64,000 nucleotides of DNA from Aquificota bacterium (GTDB taxonomy: Bacteria; Aquificota; Aquificia; Aquificales; Aquificaceae), in assembly GCA_018771605.1 (NCBI GenBank), contig CP076324.1, forward strand, positions 1,240,001 through 1,304,000. Direction: 5' to 3'. Of this stretch, positions 12,638 to 55,140 are shown piece by piece. Position numbers and translations under genes: made by a program. The notes below the pieces were generated by a model that worked only from the letters and a program-made list of their open reading frames with translations, was not told the DNA's origin and ran no database searches. How positions within the stretch are numbered: position 1 is the stretch's first letter; the number at the start of each line of letters is the position of its first letter.

Positions 12638-15600
12638 GGAAGTTTACCGAGATACTCTTGAACAACCGGTTTATAGTGATAACCCTCTCTATCTTCTTGC
12701 TTCTTTATGGCCTCTATTCCTTGAAGAAGACACCCATAGATGCCTTGCCAGACCTCACAGACACGCAGGTGATCATATACTCCGAGTGGATAGGGCAGGC
12801 GCCCCAGGTTATAGAGAACCAGCTAACCTATCCTTTGGTCTCCAACATGCTTGGCCTGCCAAGGGTGAAGGTGGTAAGGGGCTATTCTATGCCCAACTAC
12901 TCCCTTGTATACATCATCTTTGAAGATGGCACAGACCTATACTGGGCAAGGTCAAGGGTATTGGAAAAACTCTCCTATATAAGCTCACAGCTCCCATCAC
13001 AGGCAAAGGTTAGCTTAGGCCCGGATGCCACAGGCGTTGGCTGGGTCTATCAGTATGTGCTCTATTCAGAAAAGAGAAGCTTGGATGAGCTTTGGAAGAT
13101 CCAAAACTTTTATTTAAAGTATGCCCTGCTTTCCGTTCCCAATGTGGCAGAAGTGGCTTCTGTAGGAGGCTTTGAAAAGGAATACAGAGTGGTCCTTTAC
13201 CCCGAGCATATGATGCATTACGGCCTATCCCTTGAGGATGTGATAAGGGCTATAAGAGGGAGCAATATGGAGGTGGGTGGAAAGTATGTGGAGGTAAACG
13301 GAAGGGAGTTTATAGTAAGGGTTAGGGGCTATGTGAGGGAGAAGGAGGGTATAGAAAAGGCTGTCATAAAGGAGGTTAACGGCGTTCCTATAAGAGTTGG
13401 GGACATAGGCAAAGTGATTGAGACGCCAGCCTTTAGGATGGGTACTGCGGACTTTAATGGCCTTGGGAACACGGTTGGTGGAATAGTGGTGATGCGCTTT
13501 GGTGCGGATGCCTACAAGACCATAAAGGAGGTAAAGGAGAAGCTGGAGAAGGTTAAAAAGGGACTGCCGGAGGATGTAAAGATCATACCGGTTTATGACA
13601 GGTCGGACCTCATAGAGAGGTCCATAGACCACCTTAAAAGGGTGCTTTTGGAGGAATCTGTAGTTGTCATCATAGTCATAGCCCTATTTTTGCTTAGCCT
13701 CACTTTAAGCTTTGCAGTCCTTATATTCCTTCTTCTTTCCATACTTGGAACCTTCATAATCATGAACCACACGGGCATAAACTCCAACATCATGTCCTTG
13801 GGCGGCATAGCCATAGCCATAGGCACCATGGTGGACGCCGCCATAGTTCTGGTGGAGGCCTTTACAAGAAAGAGGGAAGAGGGGAAGGACCTAAGGACGG
13901 CCATCGTAGAATCCACCGCCGAGGTGGGAAAGCCCATATTCTTTGCCCTTTTGGTGGTGGCCGTCTCCTTTGTGCCCATGCTGGCTCTTAAGGCCCAAGC
14001 GGGAAGGCTCTTTGGTCCCTTGGTGCTAACCAAAACCCTAGCCATGCTTGTGGCATCCTTGCTCTCTGTAATATTAGTTCCTATTCTTCTGCTATACTTT
14101 GGAAAAGGTAAGGTGCTTAAGGAGGAGAAAAACCCCCTTGTAAGATTGCTTATAAAGGCATACACTCCCCTCTTTCATATTGCTGTAAGGCTAAGATACC
14201 TCATGCTTGTCTTGGCTATTTTGGCCATTCCTGCCTCTTATATTCTTTTCAAAAACGTAGGAAGGGAGTTTATGCCCGACCTAAGAGAGGGAACACTCCT
14301 TTATATGCCTACCACAGCCCCCGGCATATCCATCCAAGAGGCCCAAAGGCTTTTGACCATACAAGACAAAATAATAAAGAGCTTTCCGGAGGTGGATACG
14401 GTCTTTGGAAAGGCTGGAAGGGCAAACACATCCACGGACCCAGCACCCCTTTCTATGATAGAAACGGTTATAACCCTAAAGCCAGAAGACCAGTGGAGGG
14501 AGGGAATGACCTATGAAAAGCTAATATCGGAACTGGATAAGGCCTTACAGTTTCCCGGAGTTATAAACAGCTGGATCATGCCCATAAAGGGCAGGATAGA
14601 TATGATAACCACTGGAGTGAGAACGCCATTGGGTATAAAGGTTTTTGGAGACAATCTTGAAGAGGTAGTAAGGCTTGCGCAGGAGATAGAGAAGGCCCTT
14701 TATGGTATGGAAGGGGTTATGAGCGTGTATGCAGAGAGGACAACGGGAGCCACCTACTTTGAGGTAGTGCCAGACAGGGAAAAACTAAGGCTTTATGGCT
14801 TGAGCTTAGAGGATATAACTGGCACCTTTGAAAGGCTCTTTTCCAACGAGCCCGTATCCCTTTATATATCCGGAAGGGAAAGGTATGGCATAACACTGGG
14901 AGTGCCAAGGGATTACAGGCAGGACTTGGAAAATATGATGCTTCCTCTTGGAGAAAAGCTTGTGCCCCTAAAGGCTGTGGCAGAAGTGAAAAGAGTAGAA
15001 AGCCCTATGGAGGTAAAGTCTGAGAATGGCCTTCTTGTGGCCTATGTTTATATAACGCCAAGGCCAGAGGCAAGCATGGACAAGATAGTGGAGGAGGGAA
15101 CAGGAAGGATAGAGGAAAGGGTCAAGTTTCCACAGGGCTACTTTTACACCTGGACAGGCCAGTTTGAATACTGGAAAAAGGCTGTAGAGGACCTAAAGGT
15201 CATAGTGCCCATGGTGCTTGCCACCATAGTAGTGTTGGTCTACCTTAGCTTAGGAAGAGTCTTTGAGACCTTTTTGGTCCTCTTTACCTTGCCCTCTTCC
15301 CTCTTGGGAGGCCTTTTGCTTATGTACCTTATGGACTTTAGGCTCTCCATCGCATCCATAGCGGGCTTTTTGGCCCTTTTGGGCATAGCTGCAGAGATGA
15401 GCATAGTTATGGTGGTATATATAATGCATGCCTTGGAAAGGGAAAAGGACAAGGAATTTTATGAAGCCCTGTATAGCGGTGCGGTAAAGAGGATAAGGCC
15501 AAAGGCCATGACCATGCTAACTATAGTGGCAAGCCTTGTGCCAGCAGTTTTGCTAAAAGGCACTGGAAGTGAGGTGATCTCAAGGATAGCCTTGCCCATG

Positions 15601-44534: not shown

Positions 44535-45446
44535 ATGGAGCTAAGCTGGCTTGTCTTTGGAACTGTGGTGCTTGTCGCCCTCTTTTTGGACCTTTTTGTA
44601 TTTCATAGACATCCTCATAAAATATCCATAAAGGAATCTCTGTGGCTTTCTGCTTTTTGGATAGCTCTTGGGCTTGCCTTTGCAGGCTTTGTGTATTATA
44701 CAAGGGGCTATGACAGAACGGTAGAATACCTTACAGGCTACCTTCTTGAAAAGTCCTTGAGCCTTGATAACATCTTTGTCTTTATCCTTATCTTTTCCTA
44801 CTTTAAGATACCGGAAGAGTATAGGCATAAGGTCCTCCTCTGGGGCGTTTTGGGTGCTATAGTCTTTAGAGCCATATTTATCTTTGCTGGGCTGGAGTTG
44901 ATAAAGCACTTTCATTGGATCATATATGTCTTTGGAGCTGTGCTTATAATCTCAGCCATTAAACTTTTGACCACAGAAGAAAAAGAGTTCCACCCAGAAC
45001 AGACCATTGTTTATAGAATAGCCAAAAGGCTTATACCACTAAAACCGCATAATGGAGATGGCAGGTTTTTTATAAGAGAGGGCAAAAAGATCTACGCCAC
45101 GCCTATGTTCCTTGCCCTTCTTTTTGTAGAAAGCTCGGATATTATGTTTGCCATAGACTCGGTTCCAGCCATAATAGCCGTATCAAGGGACCCCTTTGTG
45201 GTATACACTTCCAACATATTTGCCATATTGGGCCTCCGATCTCTTTACTTTGCCGCCGCAGGCATTTTGCCCCTTTTCCATTACCTACATTACGGCCTTT
45301 CCTTTATCCTCGGCTTTATCGGTGTAAAGATGATCCTATCAGACTTTTATAAGATACCCGTGGAAGTATCTTTGCTTTTGATTGGTAGTGCCATCTTTGT
45401 GTCTGCAGTGGCTTCCTTGGTGGTTAAAAAGAAGGTGGATGGTTAA
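44535..45446 (+). CDS. TerC-family membrane protein
   Basis: 303 residues with 8-9 membrane helices. EKSLSLDNIFVFILIFSYF and ESSDIMFAIDSVPAIIAVSRDPFVVYTSNIFAILGLRSLYFAA are the TerC/Alx signatures, with conserved acidic residues that likely bind metal. The family is linked to tellurite resistance and manganese export. Overlaps the next gene by 8 nt. Confidence 0.92.
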   Translation: MELSWLVFGTVVLVALFLDLFVFHRHPHKISIKESLWLSAFWIALGLAFAGFVYYTRGYDRTVEYLTGYLLEKSLSLDNIFVFILIFSYFKIPEEYRHKVLLWGVLGAIVFRAIFIFAGLELIKHFHWIIYVFGAVLIISAIKLLTTEEKEFHPEQTIVYRIAKRLIPLKPHNGDGRFFIREGKKIYATPMFLALLFVESSDIMFAIDSVPAIIAVSRDPFVVYTSNIFAILGLRSLYFAAAGILPLFHYLHYGLSFILGFIGVKMILSDFYKIPVEVSLLLIGSAIFVSAVASLVVKKKVDG

Positions 45447-46494
45447 GCTACTGCAAGTGGTGGACGGTGTAGGTTGGGGCGGCACAAAGGAGCAGACCTA
45501 CCTCATAACAAGGGAGCTATCCAAAAGGGGCTTTAGGGTTCATATGGCCCTCTCCTTCCAGTATGACCTTATGGTAAGCAAGTTAAAGGGTTATGATGTA
45601 AAGCTTCATTTTTTTGAGAACCATAATAAACTCTCAAGGTTTCACCCTTTTAACTACTACAGGCTTTGGAAGATAATGAGAGAGGAGAACTTTGACATAG
45701 TGATAGCCAATTTTCCACATGCCCTTGATTTTGTAAGGACTGCCATGAGTTTTCTTAAAACTAAGCCAAAGCTTGTGGCCTACAAAAGGACTGGAAGAGG
45801 GTCCAACTTTTTTTCCAAGCTTTTCAAGTATTCTTTTGCGGATAGGATAGTGGTGGTTGATAGGGCAACCTTTGAAAGGTTAAAAGAAGATGGCTTTTTT
45901 CCAGAGAAGCTGGTTTATATACCAAGCGGTCTTGACCTTAGTAGGTTCAAGCCTATGGGTAAGGAGATGGCTTTGGCAAAGAGAAGGGAGCTTGGTATAG
46001 ACCCAAACAAAAAGGTCTTTATAAACGTGGCTAACTGGAACCCACAACATAAGGGCCAGCCTTTTCTTATAGAAGCCTTTCGTAGGCTAAACTGCCCGCA
46101 GTGCCTTCTCCTTCTGGTAGGCATAAATACAGACAAAGAAGCGCCCAAGTATGCCCAAAGGTACGGCCTTGGTGAAAGGCTTATAGGCCTTGGCTTTAGA
46201 GAGGATGTGCCAGAACTCCTCAACATGGCGGATTACTTTGTCTTTTCCTCCTACTTTGAGGGTATTGCTGGAGCCCTACTTCAAGCTATGGCTTGCGGTA
46301 AGGTGGTCATATCCACTCTTGCGGGTGGTATAAGGGATTACTTGAAGGATGGAGAAAATGGCTTTGCGGTAGATGTGGGAGACCTTGAGGGCTTTGTGGA
46401 TAGGTTAAAAAGGGCCCTTGACCTTTCGGAGGAGGAAAGGGAAAGACTTTCAAAGAGAGCCATAGAGAGCTTAAAATTCCATAGTCATACATAG
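45439..46494 (+). CDS. Glycosyltransferase family 4, 3' end displaced by IS607 element
   Basis: 351 residues from the ATG at 45439. LLQVVDGVGWGGTKEQTYLITRELSKRGF begins the GT-B fold; INVANWNPQHKGQPFLIEAF and YFVFSSYFEGIAGALLQAMACGKVVISTLAGGIRDYL hold the phosphate loop and the E(x7)E motif. The frame ends at TAG 46492-46494 just inside the IS607-type element. The lost tail is found at 49575-49628 in the matching frame. Only about 17 residues are lost, so the enzyme may remain active. Confidence 0.82.
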   Translation: MVKLLQVVDGVGWGGTKEQTYLITRELSKRGFRVHMALSFQYDLMVSKLKGYDVKLHFFENHNKLSRFHPFNYYRLWKIMREENFDIVIANFPHALDFVRTAMSFLKTKPKLVAYKRTGRGSNFFSKLFKYSFADRIVVVDRATFERLKEDGFFPEKLVYIPSGLDLSRFKPMGKEMALAKRRELGIDPNKKVFINVANWNPQHKGQPFLIEAFRRLNCPQCLLLLVGINTDKEAPKYAQRYGLGERLIGLGFREDVPELLNMADYFVFSSYFEGIAGALLQAMACGKVVISTLAGGIRDYLKDGENGFAVDVGDLEGFVDRLKRALDLSEEERERLSKRAIESLKFHSHT

Positions 46495-46509
46495 ACACTT
46501 GACAATAAA

Positions 46510-46537
46510 GTGTTAAAAGATAATAATAATATCCGAT
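46510..46537. repeat. Left target duplication, IS copy 2 (28 bp)
   Basis: 28 nt, from GTGTTAAAAG to ATATCCGAT, identical to 47504-47531. Confidence 0.93.
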
Positions 46538-47503
46538 ACGCCGGGTGAGAAATTAGGCCTCAAGTTCACCCCTCCTGTAATAGCTATATCCAATAGCATA
46601 AGCATATGTATAAACAAGCACACAAGTTAAAGTCCTCCACCCACTACCAGCATTGAAAAGTTTTATCTGACTTATAACACCCTCCACCACCTGCCTTTTT
46701 GCCCTCATCTCCCTACTATCACACACAATAACACCTTCACAGCCCCTATAACCCCTATCACCATACACCACACAATTCTCCACAAGCCCCCTAAACCATA
46801 AACTCCTTTTCTTTCTCTCTCTGAATGCCCTAACTTCATGCACGCTTCCAAAAGTTATCCACACATCATAAACTCTCCCCTCCCTATCACATAACACCAT
46901 CATCAACATACCATATCTTACCTCCTCAAACTCCACCACCTTTCCATTGTCTCTCCGAACTATCTTCCTTCTCCTCTTTGCCCACCATACCTTCCCTCTT
47001 ACCCTCCTTATCTTCTGTGTCCTCGCCCTGTTTACATTGGCTATGTCCACTATGGTTCCATCTATTACAAGTTCTATCTTCTTACCATACAAAAGCCTTG
47101 CTAAAATCATAAGCCTCAGCTTGTGAAGCTTGTATTCTCTCAATATCCTGTATACTCTCTTGAGTCTGTATCTTCTGAAGATATGCCATGATTGTATGGA
47201 TGGGTCAATAAGTAGTTTAGCTAAGGTGAGGACTTTTGTGTTGGTTATGTAGGAGAGTATAAAGATGGCTGCTATATGGATGTCTGTGAGTTTAGGCTTT
47301 CTGCCTGCTTTTGGTTTTGGCACATTAAGGAATGGAAAGGCATTTTCAAGGTCTTTGAGGATTTGTTGGTAGATGTGTAGGTAAGGTGGTATAATTTCCA
47401 TGGTAAAAACCTCCGATGGTTTTTAGGGCTACTATTATAGTAGCCCTGCTGTCTTTTTATTGATATGGAAGGTTTAGCTTAAAGGGAATTTCTCACCCAG
47501 CGT
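46538..47503 (-). mobile_element. 966-bp insertion sequence, copy 2
   Basis: Same length and ends as copy 1 (ACGCCGGGTGAGAAATT to AATTTCTCACCCAGCGT). Flanked by an exact 28-bp direct repeat. Inserted at the start of the IS607 tnpA gene: the right repeat carries the first two bases of its ATG. Confidence 0.95.
46553..47401 (-). CDS. DDE transposase (IS copy 2)
   Basis: 282 residues, intact frame, same DDE residues as copy 1 (VIDGT, YGDRGYRG, VVEGVISQ). It differs from copy 1 at nine positions, three of them within the first 30 residues (for example YLHIYQ, NAFPF, PKPKAG). Leader hairpin AAAAACC/GGTTTTT is retained ahead of the ATG. Confidence 0.9.
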   Translation of the reverse strand: MEIIPPYLHIYQQILKDLENAFPFLNVPKPKAGRKPKLTDIHIAAIFILSYITNTKVLTLAKLLIDPSIQSWHIFRRYRLKRVYRILREYKLHKLRLMILARLLYGKKIELVIDGTIVDIANVNRARTQKIRRVRGKVWWAKRRRKIVRRDNGKVVEFEEVRYGMLMMVLCDREGRVYDVWITFGSVHEVRAFRERKKRSLWFRGLVENCVVYGDRGYRGCEGVIVCDSREMRAKRQVVEGVISQIKLFNAGSGWRTLTCVLVYTYAYAIGYSYYRRGELEA

Positions 47504-47531
47504 GTGTTAAAAGATAATAATAATATCCGAT
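47504..47531. repeat. Right target duplication, IS copy 2 (28 bp)
   Basis: Exact copy of 46510-46537. It recreates the TAATAAT-type -10 region directly ahead of tnpA. Confidence 0.93.
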
Positions 47532-48165
47532 GAACGAGGAACTACTAAGTCCAAAAGAAGCGGGGAAGCTCTTAGGAGTTTCAACAAGAACAATACAAAG
47601 GTGGGACAAGCAGGGACTTATCAAGACAGTTAGAACTCCAAAAGGGCGAAGAAGGATACCTGTGTCAGAAGTAAGGAGAATTCTAAGACAGATGACGAAT
47701 GACAGGAGAGCGGTTATCTATGCAAGAGTTAGCTCCCAGAAACAGGACAAGGATGGAAACCTTGAAAGACAGGTGGAGAGATTACTTAAATGGGTTAAGG
47801 AGAATAACTATGAAGTAGTTAGAGTTTTCAAGGATACCGCAAGCGGAATAAATGATAAACGCAAGAACTTCTGGAAGATGATGGAGTTTATCAAAGAAAA
47901 CCACATACCTTTCCTAATAGTTGAGTTTCACGACAGACTCACAAGGTTCGGGCTTGAATATGTGAAAGCGCTTCTGAAAGAATACGGAGCGGAGCTTATC
48001 ACGGTAGAGAGTAAAATGAGCAAAGATAAAATGCATGAGCTTGTGGAAGACCTGATAACTATTATTACTTCCTTTACCGCAAGGATATACGGAGTGAGGT
48101 CTCAGAAATTCAAGAAGATAAAGGAGATACTTGAGGATGAAGCTACACAAAACGCTACTGCTTAA
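47530..48165 (+). CDS. tnpA: IS607-type serine recombinase TnpA
   Basis: 211 residues. A MerR-like helix-turn-helix (LLSPKEAGKLLGVSTRTIQRWDKQGLIKTVRTPKGRRRIPVSEV) is followed by a serine recombinase catalytic domain: VIYARVSSQKQDKDGNLERQ holds the nucleophilic Ser, and FHDRLTRFGLEYV the conserved Arg residues. This domain order is specific to IS607. The end overlaps tnpB by 29 nt. The ATG is only two bases from the IS copy 2 duplication boundary. Confidence 0.93.
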   Translation: MNEELLSPKEAGKLLGVSTRTIQRWDKQGLIKTVRTPKGRRRIPVSEVRRILRQMTNDRRAVIYARVSSQKQDKDGNLERQVERLLKWVKENNYEVVRVFKDTASGINDKRKNFWKMMEFIKENHIPFLIVEFHDRLTRFGLEYVKALLKEYGAELITVESKMSKDKMHELVEDLITIITSFTARIYGVRSQKFKKIKEILEDEATQNATA

Positions 48166-49566
48166 GATTGTAGAACCTAACGAAGGGAAGAGGAAGAAGT
48201 TAGAAAACACGATAGAGCTTTACGCAAAGGTTCTGAAGTTCTACCTTGGAGTTATCCCAAAGCTCGGAATGTATCGCATAGCAAGTATGGACAGCAAATC
48301 TGCTCTTACCTTCCTTGAGTTTAATACAGTTCCCACGAAAACCCATCCCAATCCTCTCTACCCTATCTTTGGAGGAGTTCAGACCAACATAAGAAGGAGT
48401 GCAATAAACAAAGCGGTTGGGATGATAAAGAGTTACCTCTCCAACCTTTTGAGATGGCACAGGGAAGGGAAAGAGCTTGAGCATTCAAAACCCTCTTATC
48501 CCAACCCCAAGAACTTCTCCTTTACCTACTACGCTACAGATGTAGAGTTTGAGGATGTTCTCTCCGCTAAGGAGTTCGCTTTTGTGAAACTCAAGGTAAT
48601 AGACGAGAAGGGAAACTACGAGTTTGTAAACTACCCTATCCTGCCTTACAGGAGGTTTTACGAGAAACTCAGCGAACTTAAAAGTGAAGGGTGGAAACTG
48701 AAGAGAAGTGCAACCCTGATAAAGAAAGGAAAAAGCTTTTACGTGGCTCTTACCCTTGAGAAGGTAGTAAAGAAGGTAAAGCAAGAGAGACCAAAGTATG
48801 TGATAAATGTGGACCTGAATATTCAAAGAAACCTGGCGTGTATAGGTATATTTGAGATAGATTGGGAAAAGAGAGAAAGCAGGCTTTACGGGATAAAGTT
48901 CATAAAAAGAGAGCTAACAAAACTTGCTTACAAAAGGGACTATTTGCTTGAGGAGATAAGGTTAAGACAAGTTCTCACAGGGCGAAGTCCTGAAAGGGGG
49001 ATAACAGAAAGCTGTGGAGGAAGATTTACAATCTCAACAGGGATATTGCTCTGAAGGTGGCAAAAGAAATAGACGAAGTGGCAAAATACTTTAAGGAGAA
49101 AGGAGAGGTAGTAGTGGTATTTGAGAAGCTAAAAGGACTAAGAGGAAAGAGAGGGAAGGGTAAGAGATTAAACAGGAAGCTTTCTTACTGGATGAGGAAA
49201 AGTGTTCAGGAAAGGGTTGAGTATTTAGCCTTTGAGAACGGTTATGGGATAGATTTTGTGTATCCACACTACACTTCAAAGAGGTGCTGTGTATGTGGGT
49301 TGTTGGGAGAGAGGTTCTCTCCCAATGGCTCAAAAGCCCTCTTTGGGTGTAGTAGATGCGGATACGAGGTAAATGCAGATGTGAACGCTGTGTTTAACCA
49401 GCACTTTGTTTACCTGTCCCATCTCCTACATGGAGGTGGGGAAGCCCGCTCAGTGGTGCGGGTTGGGGTTTCGCTGAAAGGTCTCCGAAAGAGGAGACAC
49501 AATCTAAGCGGAGCCTCTACGAGCAATGGCTACCTTTGCCTACGTAATGTGTATGTTTTAAGGTAG
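48137..49566 (+). pseudogene. tnpB: TnpB (RNA-guided nuclease), frameshifted
   Basis: Two adjoining frames (48137-49054 and 49057-49566) together give a full TnpB. The first holds the N-terminal WED-like region and the first RuvC Asp (VINVDLNIQRNLA). The second has RuvC Glu (VVVFEKLKGL), a zinc ribbon (CCVCG..GCSRCG) and the last Asp (NADVNAVFNQ). The break lies in the G5 run at 48996-49000; adding one G gives GDNRKLWRKIYNLNRDIALKVAKEID, the expected TnpB continuation. Catalytic residues are otherwise intact. Programmed slippage or sequence error are possible alternatives to inactivation. Confidence 0.85.
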
Positions 49567-49575
49567 CTGTTGCAA
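49441..49575 (+). ncRNA. Candidate omega-RNA (reRNA) at the element right end
   Basis: In IS605/IS607 elements the TnpB guide RNA lies at the 3' end of tnpB and reads into flanking DNA. Here CCCGC/GCGGG (49445-49462) and GTCTCC/GGAGAC (49481-49498) form hairpins within the last part of the gene, ending near the deduced right end. The guide would be the first bases of flank, beginning about 49575. Position is by analogy; no RNA evidence. Confidence 0.4.
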
Positions 49576-49628
49576 CCACTGTGGATAAGTATGAGGAGCT
49601 TTTTAAGGACTTGCTGGGTATATCTTAA
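49575..49628 (+). pseudogene. Detached C-terminal end of the GT4 gene
   Basis: ACC ACT GTG GAT AAG... encodes TTVDKYEELFKDLLGIS then stop, the typical C-terminal helix of GT4 enzymes. Phase matches the 45439-46494 frame across the IS607 element. It overlaps the 3' end of apbE (minus) by 26 nt, as convergent compact genes in this genome often do. Confidence 0.7.
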
Positions 49629-50478
49629 GGCTTTCAAAGTATTCCATAAAGGCCCTGTTTATAAAAAGGCTTCCATCCTTAAAAAGCAAAAACACACCTA
49701 TATGTGGGTTTTCCTTTATAAACCTTTCCCTGCTTTCATCATCCATTGCCAATAGGGCTGTCTCTAAAGCATCCGTTATGGTGCAATCGTGGTATGCCAC
49801 CGTTGCCTGAAGAAGGCTGTTTTCCTTTCCTATTATGTGTTTTCTAAGGTAGTTGCCTCCAGTGGAAAGGCACAGGTCCTTTGAGTTGTAGCCTTCGGCC
49901 AGTAATGTATTGTTTATGGGATTAAAAATGGCAAGGAGCCTTTTGTGGCCCCATACCCTTAGGTCTCCTGCTATGGAGATAAAGCCCCAAGGTGTTTTGA
50001 GCCTTTCGTAGGCCTTCTGCACCGCATAGCCCTTGCCTATGCCACCAAGGTCTATGGCCATACCCTTTTCCAAAAGACAAACCTTAGCTCCCTCTATGCT
50101 TACCTTTTTGTAGTCTATAAGCCTCTTTGCCTCCTCTTCACCTATAAGTCCTTTCCTTTTGTAGTTTATGGTGTATGCACCAACCATTATATCAAAAAAG
50201 CCATAGGTCCTTTTAGAGATTTCAAGGGCTTTTTGAACCACCTCAAGGGTTTCTTCTGAAGCCTTTTCACAGCCTACACCAGCACTCTTATTTATCCTTG
50301 ATACCTCCGAATCTTCCATATAATCTGAGAGCTTCTCTTCAAGGCTTTTCATATACCTATAGGCTTGGTATTCTTTGCCCTCTGGAAGTTCTATAAGGGC
50401 GTAGGTACCCATAAGGTAAAAGAGCCTCTCCTGAGAAAAGGAAAGAGATAAGAGGGTAAGAAGTATAAGGAGTTTCAC
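49603..50478 (-). CDS. apbE: FAD:protein FMN transferase
   Basis: 291 residues with signal peptide (MKLLILLTLLSLSFSQ). FYLMGTYALIELP, SEVSRINKSAG, MAIDLGGIGKGYAVQKAYERL and FISIAGDLRVWG are ApbE motifs; TITDALETALLAM contains the metal-binding T-D-A-x-x-T region, with Glu in the fifth position. It attaches FMN to Thr/Ser of exported flavoproteins in the periplasm. The ATGA overlap with the upstream gene indicates an operon. Confidence 0.88.
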   Translation of the reverse strand: MKLLILLTLLSLSFSQERLFYLMGTYALIELPEGKEYQAYRYMKSLEEKLSDYMEDSEVSRINKSAGVGCEKASEETLEVVQKALEISKRTYGFFDIMVGAYTINYKRKGLIGEEEAKRLIDYKKVSIEGAKVCLLEKGMAIDLGGIGKGYAVQKAYERLKTPWGFISIAGDLRVWGHKRLLAIFNPINNTLLAEGYNSKDLCLSTGGNYLRKHIIGKENSLLQATVAYHDCTITDALETALLAMDDESRERFIKENPHIGVFLLFKDGSLFINRAFMEYFESLKIYPASP

Positions 50479-51110
50479 TTCTTTCTTCTTTGGGTTTTGG
50501 TGGGCTTGCTTTCAGAGGGCTTTGGCTCAAAAACGGAAACCTTTACTTCAAAGTCCTTAATTACTACCCTCGCTGGCTTTAGCTTGCCTTCCTCAAAGAC
50601 AAAGCTTAGCATGGGGAGGTTTTCAAGCTTGGAAGATAGCTCTTCATCCGCCAGCAGACCGCTTATAAAACCAAAACCGAGCAGTGGAGCCTGAAGTATG
50701 AGGCTTGGCTTTTTATCGTAGAGAAGCACCCTTCGTAGGTCTTGGTTAAACTGGGATTGTACCTCTTCATGTGGCCTCTCTCCGTAGTAGGCCATGTAGA
50801 CATGAAAAGGCTGTATAAGCTTTAGTCTGTTTTCCAGACCTTCGCCACCCTTTACATAGTAGGCTTCCACTCCAAGGCTCTTTAGAGATGCCACCAAGGA
50901 GGCGGCAAAGAGGGCACAAAGGTCTGCACTTTCCATATACACCACTGCTATGCGGTTATAGCCCATATCCTTGAGCAGTTTTGCTATATGCACGCTGGCG
51001 TTTATGCGGGCGTTTGCCCTCTCTGGTGTAAGGAAGGTGTTTGCCTGCTGGGCATAGGAAAGACTAAAAAGGCCTACAAGTATTAAAAGCTTAAAAACAA
51101 ACTTTCTCAT
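50475..51110 (-). CDS. Uncharacterised exported protein
   Basis: 211 residues. Signal peptide MRKFVFKLLILVGLFSLSYA, then an alpha/beta domain (AHIAKLLKDMGYNRIAVVYMESADLCALFAASLVASLKSLGVEAYYVKGGEG as seen in outline). The tail is basic (KPTKTQRRKK). No known family is evident. Co-translated with apbE. TATAAT (51123-51118) lies 7 nt from the ATG, but IS copy 3 begins 11 nt beyond, so the -35 region was replaced by IS sequence. Confidence 0.72.
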   Translation of the reverse strand: MRKFVFKLLILVGLFSLSYAQQANTFLTPERANARINASVHIAKLLKDMGYNRIAVVYMESADLCALFAASLVASLKSLGVEAYYVKGGEGLENRLKLIQPFHVYMAYYGERPHEEVQSQFNQDLRRVLLYDKKPSLILQAPLLGFGFISGLLADEELSSKLENLPMLSFVFEEGKLKPARVVIKDFEVKVSVFEPKPSESKPTKTQRRKK

Positions 51111-51134
51111 GCATGGTATTATAATGCAATATAT

Positions 51135-52100
51135 ACGCCGGGTGAGAAATTAGACCTCAAGTTCACCCCTCCTATAATAGCTATATCCAATAGCATAAGC
51201 ATATACATACACAAACACACAAGTTAAAGTCCTCCACCCACTACCAGCATTAAAAAGCTTTATCTGACTTATAACACCTTCCACTACCTGCCTTTTTGCC
51301 CTCATCTCCCTACTACCACACACAATCACACCTTCACAACCCCTATAACCCCTATCTCCATACACCACACAACTCTCCACAAGCTTCCTAAACCATAAAC
51401 TCCTTCTCTTCCTTTCCCTAAATGCCCTAACCTCATGCACACTTCCAAAGCTTATCCACACATCATAAACTCTCCCCTCCCTATCACATAACACCATCAT
51501 CAACATACCATATCTTACCTCCTCAAACTCCACTACCTTCCCATTGTCTCTCCGAACTATCTTCCTTCTCCTCTTTGCCCACCATACCTTCCCTCTTACC
51601 CTCCTTATCTTCTGTGTCCTCGCCCTGTTTACATTGGCTATGTCCACTATGGTTCCATCTATTACAAGTTCTATCTTCTTACCATACAAAAGCCTTGCTA
51701 AAATCATAAGCCTCAGCTTGTGAAGCTTGTATTCTCTCAATATCCTGTATACTCTCTTGAGTCTGTATCTTCTGAAGATATGCCATGATTGTATGGATGG
51801 GTCAATAAGTAGTTTAGCTAAGGTGAGGACTTTTGTATTGGTTATGTAGGAGAGTATAAAGATGGCTGCTATATGGATGTCTGTGAGTTTAGGCTTTCTG
51901 CCTGCTTTAGCTTTTGGCACATTAAGGAATGGCAAGGCATTTTCAAGGTCTTTTAGGATTTGTTGGTAGATGCGTAGGTAAGGTGGTATAATTTCCATGG
52001 TAAAAACCTCCGATGGTTTTTAGAGCTACTATTATAGTAGCCCTGCTGTCTTTTTATTGATATGGAAGGTTTAGCTTAAAGGGAATTTCTCACTCGGCGT
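51135..52100 (-). mobile_element. 966-bp insertion sequence, copy 3
   Basis: Length and ends as in copies 1 and 2 (ACGCCGGGTGAGAAATT; AATTTCTCACTCGGCGT). Unlike them it lacks a matching direct repeat: the 28 nt on the left and right do not correspond. It lies between the divergent genes at 51110 (minus) and 52119 (plus). Confidence 0.93.
51150..51998 (-). CDS. DDE transposase (IS copy 3)
   Basis: 282 residues, intact. Identical to copy 1 through about residue 174, with seven changes after it (for example CDREGR, ERKRRS, RKLVESC, CGSRE). DDE motifs and leader hairpin are conserved. Confidence 0.9.
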   Translation of the reverse strand: MEIIPPYLRIYQQILKDLENALPFLNVPKAKAGRKPKLTDIHIAAIFILSYITNTKVLTLAKLLIDPSIQSWHIFRRYRLKRVYRILREYKLHKLRLMILARLLYGKKIELVIDGTIVDIANVNRARTQKIRRVRGKVWWAKRRRKIVRRDNGKVVEFEEVRYGMLMMVLCDREGRVYDVWISFGSVHEVRAFRERKRRSLWFRKLVESCVVYGDRGYRGCEGVIVCGSREMRAKRQVVEGVISQIKLFNAGSGWRTLTCVFVYVYAYAIGYSYYRRGELEV

Positions 52101-52118
52101 GTATATATTTAATAACCT

Positions 52119-53024
52119 ATGAGAAGATGCTATAAATGTGGTCAAAAGGCTGTAGTTTATCTAAGACAGTACAGGATAGCCTTTTGTAAAGAACATTATC
52201 TTGAGTGGTATTTAAAGAGGGTGCAGGAGACTATAAAAGAATTTAGGATGTTTGGGAAGGGAGATAGAGTGCTTGTGGCCGTATCTGGTGGAAAAGATAG
52301 CCTTTCTCTGTGGGATGCCTTACACAGGCTTGGCTATGAGGCCGGTGGCCTTTATATAGACCTTGGCATAGGGGACTATTCAAGGCGTTCTAGGGAAGTA
52401 TGTGAAAAGTTTGCCAGGGAAAGGTCCTTAAAGCTTCATGTGGTTGAATTAAGCAAGGAGATCGCCACCATACCAGAGATAAGGGAAAAGGAAAAGAGGC
52501 CAGCCTGCTCCTTTTGCGGTCAGATAAAGAGGTACTATATGAACCATGTGGCCAAAAAGGAAGGTTATAGCGTGGTAGCCACAGGCCATAACTTGGACGA
52601 TGAGAGCGCCACTCTGCTTTCCAACGTGCTAAGCTGGAATATGGACTATCTTTCAAGGCAGTTCCCCGTGCTTTTGGAAGGTGAAGGCTTTGTGCGTAAG
52701 GTAAAGCCTTTGTTTAAGTTTACAGAAAAAGAAAATGCTCTTTATGCCTTTCTGTCTGGCATTGAATTTGTGGAAGAGGAGTGTCCCTTCTCCGAAGGCG
52801 CCAGTTCCATTGAGTACAAAAGAATACTCTCTGAGATAGAGGAAAAAAGCCCAGGCACTAAGCTTAGGTTCTACATGGACTTTCTAAGAAGGATGCATCC
52901 TATACTTCAACAGGATAAGGCCCAGCTAAGGCCCTGTAAGGTATGCGGTGAGCCAACAAGCTCAGAGGTTTGTTCCATATGCAGGCTTAGAGAAAGACTT
53001 AGTTTAAAGGCTTTGTCATTCTAA
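52119..53024 (+). CDS. ttuA: tRNA 2-thiolation enzyme, TtuA/TtcA-like
   Basis: 301 residues. An N-terminal zinc finger (CYKCGQKAVVY..FCKEHY), the PP-loop VLVAVSGGKDSLSLWDAL, CSFCGQIKRYYMNHVAKKEGYSVVATGHNLDDES with Fe-S/catalytic cysteines, and a C-terminal zinc finger (CKVCGEPTSSEVCSIC) give the TtuA/Ncs6 architecture. TtuA forms 2-thioribothymidine at position 54 of tRNA in thermophiles. The start is 18 nt from IS copy 3, whose end may now provide upstream promoter sequence. Converges on the GNAT gene by 26 nt. Confidence 0.88.
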   Translation: MRRCYKCGQKAVVYLRQYRIAFCKEHYLEWYLKRVQETIKEFRMFGKGDRVLVAVSGGKDSLSLWDALHRLGYEAGGLYIDLGIGDYSRRSREVCEKFARERSLKLHVVELSKEIATIPEIREKEKRPACSFCGQIKRYYMNHVAKKEGYSVVATGHNLDDESATLLSNVLSWNMDYLSRQFPVLLEGEGFVRKVKPLFKFTEKENALYAFLSGIEFVEEECPFSEGASSIEYKRILSEIEEKSPGTKLRFYMDFLRRMHPILQQDKAQLRPCKVCGEPTSSEVCSICRLRERLSLKALSF

Positions 53025-53460: not shown

Positions 53461-54062
53461 GGTTTTAGTATTTTGGCCACTTCTGGAACCTTTACCCTAA
53501 ATAGGTCCTCCGATGGTGTAAAGTTAAAAGATACTCTTACAAACTCTATGGTGGTACTTATGCCTTCCCTTTCTTCTACCTTTATACTCCTTATATCGCC
53601 CCTTTGGGAAACTTCCACAAAAACCTTTGAAAAATAATCATCCTTCACCTTGGGTTTTAGGACAAAAACTTTACCTTCTGTATTTTCTACTTCACCCACA
53701 AGTTGAAAGACCTCCGATAAGGGTCTTGATACTAAAAATAGCGCCTCAATAACCGGTGAATTATTCCTATCAAGGTTATCAATAAAGGCAGTCTTGTCCT
53801 TTGGAGAATAGACCAACACCTTAAAGCCATCGGAGACTATAAGGGTCTTTTCTGGATGTTGGTATTCTATCCTAAACCTTCCACCCCTTTGGGCATAGAA
53901 AAGGCCTTTTGATACATCCGCCTTTGATTGCCATGGATATTGAACCTTTTGAACAAAGGCCACCTTTATGCTTTTTATGTTCTCCAGCCTTTTCTCAAAC
54001 TCCTCAAAAGATTGGGAAAAGGAAAGACATATTAAGAAAAGGAGAAAAGTTAAAACCTTCAT
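53457..54062 (-). CDS. lolA: LolA-like lipoprotein carrier
   Basis: 201 residues with signal peptide (MKVLTFLLFLICLSFSQ). FEEFEKRLENIKSIKVAFVQKVQYPW, then GLFYAQRGGRFRIEYQHPEKTLIVSDGFKVLVYSPKDK is the LolA/LolB half-barrel pattern. It carries lipoproteins through the periplasm to the outer membrane. Overlaps both neighbouring genes by ATGA, in an operon after ilvE. Confidence 0.85.
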   Translation of the reverse strand: MKVLTFLLFLICLSFSQSFEEFEKRLENIKSIKVAFVQKVQYPWQSKADVSKGLFYAQRGGRFRIEYQHPEKTLIVSDGFKVLVYSPKDKTAFIDNLDRNNSPVIEALFLVSRPLSEVFQLVGEVENTEGKVFVLKPKVKDDYFSKVFVEVSQRGDIRSIKVEEREGISTTIEFVRVSFNFTPSEDLFRVKVPEVAKILKP

Positions 54063-55140
54063 AGCTTATGAAACCTCCTAAGAAAGGATAGTATAACCTC
54101 ATACCACATAACCACCATATCCCAATTTATGGCATCGTAATTGTCGTATTGGGTGTGCCTTATGGTAAAGGGATAAGAGGTAAGGAAAAGGCTTTGCACG
54201 CCTCTCTCTTTAAAAGGTATATGGTCTCCATCCAAGTCTTTTGCCCTTCTAAACTCTATAGGCATTTTTAGGTCCTCCACATGCTTATAAAAGAGATGGT
54301 TTATCCTCTCTCCGTTATACCCGCCCAAGTCTTCGTATATTACACAGGGATTGTGCCAGCCTATGCCATCAAGGTTTATACAATAATAAACATGCCTTGG
54401 CTCCTTTTTTAAATGCCACCTTACACCCTCTAAACCAAGCTCCCTTGCATCGCTTATAAGGAACCTAAGCTTGTAAGGAGTATTGTATCGTTCTCTCAGT
54501 TCTTCATATAAAAAAAGCAATAGAAGAAAAGCCACACCATTATCCATAGCTCCATAAACACCATGCACCGTATCCATATGTGCCACAAGGTAGATCACTG
54601 GACCCCTGCCTATTTCCATAATCCAATTTTGCCCTTGCAATGTCTCCTCCTTAGATTTTACAAAAAGCTTTATCCTATAGTCCTCCACTTTACTTACATG
54701 CTCCCTCTGAAGGCTAAGTATGGGTATATCAAGCCCCGTATAGCATCCATAAACATAGCCATCTAAAGCCTCTTCCCTGTAGGTTAAAATGGCAATGGCC
54801 CCCCTTTTTGTGCTTCAAAGGCTTTATCCCTTGTGAGGTCTGGTATGAGCGCAATATCACCCTCCCAATACTCTCTTTTCACGTAGGCTTCCTTTTCTAT
54901 CTCTTTGCTTCCTATGTAGGCAACGCAGTCTATCCTTTCACCTTCCACCTCTATCCAAGCTTCTTTGGGTATACATCTGTTTACAAAAAAGGTTTCCTTT
55001 TCATAAGGACAAGAAAGCTGTTCAAGGAAAGATTCTATTAACTTATGCGCCCTTTTGTGTCCCTCCGTGCCGGTTAGTCTATTAATGCTTAAAACATCGT
55101 AGGCAAGATCTTTAAAAAGGTCCAGCCTTTCACTTTTCAT
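54059..55140 (-). pseudogene. M28-family metallopeptidase, frameshifted
   Basis: The N-terminal part is the frame 55140-54784 (118 residues); the C-terminal part is open from about 54800 to 54059. They join if one G is added to the G6 run at 54804-54799 (minus strand, after A5), giving AQKGGAIAILTYREEALDG. The C-terminal part has the M28 zinc sites: YLVAHMDTVHG, AMDNGVAFLLLL, SDARELGLEG and TSYPFTIRHTQYDNYD. Residues needed for catalysis look intact. It may be an inactive gene, a slippage site or a consensus error. It overlaps ilvE by 11 nt. Confidence 0.82.

Follow-up and report, generated by a model that had tools for sequence, protein, structure and literature searches.

An IS607-family transposon in G000, the genome of a heat-loving bacterium, carries a tnpB gene that has probably lost a single base through a recent, genuine mutation. 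The window, i.e., the whole 64,000-base stretch of DNA that was analysed, comprises bases 1240001-1304000 of this genome, which is contained in one contig of 1.72 Mb. The features of the element and its surroundings are:

45382-46494, plus strand: glycosyltransferase gene (Pfam Glycos_transf_1), split in its 3' end region by the IS607 element; element-free sites in G006, G010 and G013
about 46467-49579, plus strand: IS607-family transposon, carrying the broken tnpB
46467-46535, plus strand: IS607 left end with the conserved start GAGCTT, common to four places with differing flanks
46536-47505 (ends approximate), minus strand: DDE insertion sequence lying in the left end, with an open reading frame at 46553-47401; absent from the G021 element
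47530-48165, plus strand: intact tnpA, IS607 serine recombinase with a MerR-type N terminus (Pfam, NCBIfam)
48131-49566, plus strand: whole frame-broken tnpB, in a single frame as far as about 49000, one base off thereafter
48131-49054, plus strand: upstream part of tnpB, frame A, with the first acidic residue at 48812-48814; the last 17 or so codons are out of frame
48992-49000, plus strand: interval with one missing base (A3G5 tract), delimited by the frame-B TGA at 48991 and the codons of five relatives
48994-49566, plus strand: downstream part of tnpB, frame B, with a glutamate at 49123-49125, an aspartate at 49378-49380 and four cysteines at 49285-49359; the first usual start codon is GTG 49057
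49411-49579, plus strand: candidate omegaRNA scaffold and right end, ending in CAACCAC and overlapping the 3' end of tnpB (from fold and covariation)

The product of tnpA matches Pfam Resolvase (3.6e-24) and MerR (7.4e-12) and NCBIfam transpos_IS607 (1.1e-59; 201 bits against a cut-off of 110), identifying it as a serine recombinase with an N-terminal MerR-type DNA-binding domain, as is characteristic of the IS607 family. Also in common with this family, tnpB overlaps tnpA, starting at 48131 within it, no terminal inverted repeat of at least 20 nt is listed for the element, and comparison by eye with the element-free sites of G006, G010 and G013, three genomes of the same genus, revealed no duplicated flank, i.e., an insertion without target-site duplication. 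The element differs from other IS607-family transposons in its out-of-frame tnpB, in the DDE insertion sequence within its left end and in the host sequence missing at its insertion site. Its ends read GAGCTT...CAACCAC in several copies; a shared dinucleotide, GG or similar as IS607 elements have at their ends and target, was not recognised by eye. The codons of the interrupted glycosyltransferase gene continue after the element at 49578-49628 (end codons compared). The match of the G010 DNA to the window stops at 46466 and restarts at 49578, with 28 bases in between, which suggests that insertion apparently cost the host gene about 28 bp relative to G010.

G000 has no second copy of this element that could serve for comparison: a 2,161-base query matched only the window, the 3' end of a mini-element at 413 kb (see below) and two short pieces. 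Five other TnpB-like places in G000 are distant (32–41%), and the upstream half of the window TnpB is absent from all 13 same-genus genomes searched.

Matches of the DDE insertion sequence to IS982/IS5 are weak and below the cut-off. It is bordered by a perfect 28-bp direct repeat (46510-46537 and 47504-47531), the right copy of which ends at the tnpA start codon; 28 bp is long for a target duplication by this kind of DDE element. A similar copy (92% over 300 nt) follows at 51129-52106, some 1.6 kb beyond the IS607 element. At a further locus of G000 (contig C1, about 428.7 kb; L040:1183-1367), an IS607 left end directly adjoins a 30-bp CRISPR-like repeat, present in two copies 67 bp apart. 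A DDE element, 95–96% similar, occupies the same spot there, turned the other way round with respect to the left end, and the IS607 right end was not found at this locus.

Within tnpB, frame A is open from its start to a TGA at 49052-49054, while a TGA at 48991-48993 bounds frame B on its upstream side, after which it is open to 49566. Searched against the window with tblastn, the intact TnpB of G021 matches with its residues 1-291 at 48137-49000 (73% identical) and with residues 290-451 at 48994-49479 (75% identical), the two matches being one base out of register; the intact G064 protein as a query gives the same pattern. The claim of an earlier, sequence-only reading that a one-base break separates the two frames is borne out by these matches, and the run at 48996-49000 is exactly GGGGG, as that reading had it. 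Its assignment of the missing base to this run, as a sixth G, was not confirmed: frame B reads AAG GGG GAT (K-G-D) at the site and already uses all five Gs, so the gap is not pinned to the run. The corresponding codons are CAG GAA GGG GAT in G021, CAG GTA GGA GAT in G016, AGG AAA GGG GAT in G064, AAC AAA GAA GAT in G052 and ACA AAA GGG GAC in G107, encoding SPQEGDN, SPQVGDN, SPRKGDN, KPNKEDN and SPTKGDN, respectively. Three of these relatives have K-G-D or K-E-D at the site, and the downstream frame of the window reads K-G-D-N. Judged from these alignments, the missing base may be placed anywhere between 48991 and 49001, with the A3 tract (48993-48995) at least as good a place as the G5 run. 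Runs of five or more bases occupy 2,321 of the 64,000 bases of the window (3.6%); a location there is mildly unusual, yet the break need not be assigned to the run.

The three acidic residues and the four cysteines, located by eye in alignments, are conserved with the relatives; we take them to be those of the RuvC domain and of a zinc ribbon. The downstream part matches Pfam TNB (E 2.1e-14), and the upstream part matches NCBIfam guided_TnpB at 1.8e-4, far under that model's cut-off. The earlier statement that RuvC residues and zinc ribbon are intact is thus upheld for the conserved residues themselves, their naming being presumptive. The gene has the three acidic residues and the four-cysteine ribbon of the TnpB sequence family, spread over two frames, and lacks the one uninterrupted reading frame of a functional TnpB.

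For the candidate omegaRNA, the segment 49411-49581 is predicted to fold with −81.7 kcal/mol (z −5.75; none of 200 shuffles as good). An alignment of nine sequences contains compensated changes in 7 of 51 consensus pairs, with an overall covariation term that is slightly unfavourable (+1.61). The predicted fold would provide the structured omegaRNA found at the 3' end in the TnpB family. A model built from the nine sequences was run on 112 genomes of the order and recognises 17 places, in 11 of these genomes; eight of the nine model-building sequences are among the places and match by construction. An Rfam search of window positions 46400-52200 gave no match at E 1. The element therefore resembles TnpB RNA-guided nuclease (OMEGA) systems in its acidic residues, four-cysteine ribbon and structured RNA over the 3' end, and differs from them in the broken frame and in having no Rfam family match. 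The intact relative scanned, that of G021, scores 96 bits with guided_TnpB, just below the cut-off of 100.

The ancestral tnpB was, on the comparative evidence, whole, because all five close relatives with a match spanning the site (G021, G016, G064, G052 and G107) read straight through it; partial relatives whose match leaves the site uncovered (G020, G032, G071 and a second G021 contig) and distant TnpBs were left out of this count. A whole tnpB adjoins an intact tnpA in G021, which is of the same family as the window genome (open frame of 468 amino acids), and in G064 (511 amino acids). The closest named relative of the window tnpB, and the only one obtained in a pattern-based scan of named genome contigs, is on the Aquificaceae MAG contig JALWEG010000002.1, with the same junction codons as G021:C2. 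In viral contigs, a 26-base pattern of the break site had no exact match, and a protein-alignment scan gave at least one distant place, 29% identical, among the matches listed.

Between the window and G021, dN/dS values calculated by the Nei-Gojobori method are 0.092 over 281 codons upstream of the break and 0.050 over 136 codons downstream, values that are rough given how close the synonymous sites come to saturation. With G064 used to polarise them, amino-acid changes number 19 in the window and 25 in G021 upstream of the break, and 9 and 12, respectively, downstream. By these measures the downstream half of tnpB appears free of decay, which implies that the break is recent, or absent from the cell, or bypassed. 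Broken copies occur elsewhere in the clade: G016 contains an in-frame TAG and G032 several stops. A survey of RAGATH-18-linked IS607 loci reports, for the loci it covers, that 30% of TnpAs are pseudo proteins through a frameshift or stop (PMC11061315).

If the base is truly missing in the cell, as we infer, translation from the tnpA-tnpB junction would end at 49054 and produce a fragment of about 305 amino acids, with one RuvC acidic residue out of three, the first, and no zinc ribbon. As two catalytic acids and the zinc ribbon would be missing, this fragment should not cut DNA, and the RNA-guided retention function should be lost with the broken tnpB. The persistence of tnpA, both ends and the omegaRNA region would leave the element able to move in principle. 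Transposition in the IS607 family is described as needing tnpA only, with tnpB dispensable (PMC6188088), so the element could still move without TnpB.

A possible but clearly less probable explanation is an assembly or base-calling error, in which case the A3G5 tract would be a base longer in the cell and tnpB intact. For a frame-break survey, the open reading frames of roughly two thirds of G006, together with those of window-matching G013 stretches, were compared with G000:440001-1304000 (864 kb), of which 474,765 bases lie under homologous G006/G013 frames. There were six mechanical events, four of which were accepted as gene breaks, both sides of each being well conserved:

G000:C1 999845 (L102): uracil phosphoribosyltransferase gene, at an A7 run, one base long (read from the alignment)
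G000:C1 1019670 (L103): HDOD protein gene, at an A8 run, one base long (read from the alignment)
window 54793-54823 (54803; genome 1294803), minus strand: M28 peptidase gene (54062-55140), at A5G6, one base short (read from the alignment); gene conserved in G006 and G013
G000:C1 640224 (L185): small gene like a 162-amino-acid G006 frame, at no run of five or more bases, one base short (read from the alignment)

Three of the four are located at runs of 6–8 bases, one of them in this window, and the comparison in the other direction, which covered 552,300 bases in G006/G013, listed seven events without a convincing gene break among them. Both observations count against a mutation, in that residual assembly errors would look alike. 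The G000 assembly has a low rate of such breaks, higher than in its relatives and with three in four at homopolymers, which could be due to residual error or to true mutation. There is precedent in the Deinococcus radiodurans BAA-816 reference, for which a comparison with resequenced strains called many of the discrepancies it lists likely sequencing errors (PMC11219805). The lack of further stops or indels in tnpB, a gene expected to be free to decay, fits an error too.

Two G000 events, at 512822 and 544813, were dropped because in each the first piece is apparently a reading frame spuriously extended in the upstream direction. Of the reverse events, inspected by eye, four look like upstream extensions, three of these probably over tRNA genes, and the other three like reading frames with stops or weak ends, which probably do not represent genes. 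A narrower first survey gave seven events in G000 over 254,205 bases and seven in G006/G013 over 323,307; its additional events involved short reading frames, and of 934842, 940501, 1137904 and 1184838 the first two were inspected singly and dropped. The tnpB break is outside the survey lists, G006 and G013 being without the element, and was found with the G021 and G064 queries.

Were all four accepted breaks errors, the rate would be about 8 per million bases, which corresponds to roughly 0.01 for a gene as long as tnpB. This is below the rate at which genes of this class of element are broken, and a true recent mutation is therefore favoured over an error. The A3G5 tract of tnpB is also shorter than the three long runs, and the homopolymer pattern fits true slippage mutations too. 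The break at 640224, outside any long run, means that G000 holds single-base breaks outside homopolymers, and the left end of the same IS607 element has also been disrupted, by the DDE insertion sequence; both are points in favour of mutation.

The sequence-only reading had left a recent break, a programmed one and a sequence error as options. The first and last survive the comparisons, while programmed −1 frameshifting or transcript slippage, supplying a controlled amount of full-length TnpB, is improbable. The relation between frames A and B does require a −1 shift, for which re-pairing of the GGG codon (48998-49000) would be possible by a step of one base backwards in the G run, and both halves of tnpB look to be under purifying selection. 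Against this, the break is absent from all five relatives spanning the site, whereas in insertion sequences with programmed frameshifting both the break and the slippery site are conserved in relatives; the sequence A AGG GGG contains no in-frame X XXY YYZ heptamer, and the 90 nt downstream of the break fold no better than shuffled sequences (z 0.34). The run is short for transcript slippage. Within the titles and abstract openings searched, a partial coverage of the literature, no paper on a programmed break in tnpB was found.

Mini-elements of about 330–360 bp, without a tnp gene, are present in G000 and in one other genome, G016:

G000:C1 about 413102-413433 (L035:1602-1934): left end, extra structured stretch, omegaRNA and right end
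G016:C2 about 15214-15572 (L034:1215-1573): left end, extra structured stretch, omegaRNA and right end

They look like non-autonomous derivatives. Their left end carries a TTGACT box, and the extra structured stretch folds with z values of −3.74 (G000) and −4.33 (G016), its long stem differing between G000 and G016, as judged by eye, by one or more compensating changes. G052 and G107 also have omegaRNA ends, either lone or as remnants. The G000 mini-element is situated where two minus-strand open reading frames meet, perhaps a single interrupted gene. A splicing group I intron was considered for the mini-element and had no Rfam match; in an Rfam search of four related loci the sole match was to HYMAI, which is implausible (30.5 bits against a gathering score of 80). 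It is very unlikely that the broken tnpB is a step toward an RNA-only family, in which mini-elements persist and are moved in trans by TnpA, with TnpB made only in traces by −1 slippage.

Least likely of all is a two-piece TnpB, in which ribosomes leaving the upstream frame at 49054 start again at GTG 49057 and the two products come together: the TGA at 49052-49054 is two bases ahead of this GTG, in the other frame, and AAGG just precedes it, but the closeness of stop and start is a by-product of the shifted frame, a restart there omits the residues with which the conserved downstream half begins (LWRKIYNLNRDIALK), and all five relatives are unsplit at the site.

The tnpB break is thus most likely an ordinary recent mutation or a sequencing slip and not a new mechanism. 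A lone tnpB frameshift matters little, given that IS607 moves with tnpA alone and that close relatives also have broken copies. Single-base breaks in the G000 assembly, mostly at homopolymers, call for caution and need checks at the read level before they are given a biological reading. The mini-elements, which have a structured RNA of their own, offer a more interesting lead than the tnpB frameshift.
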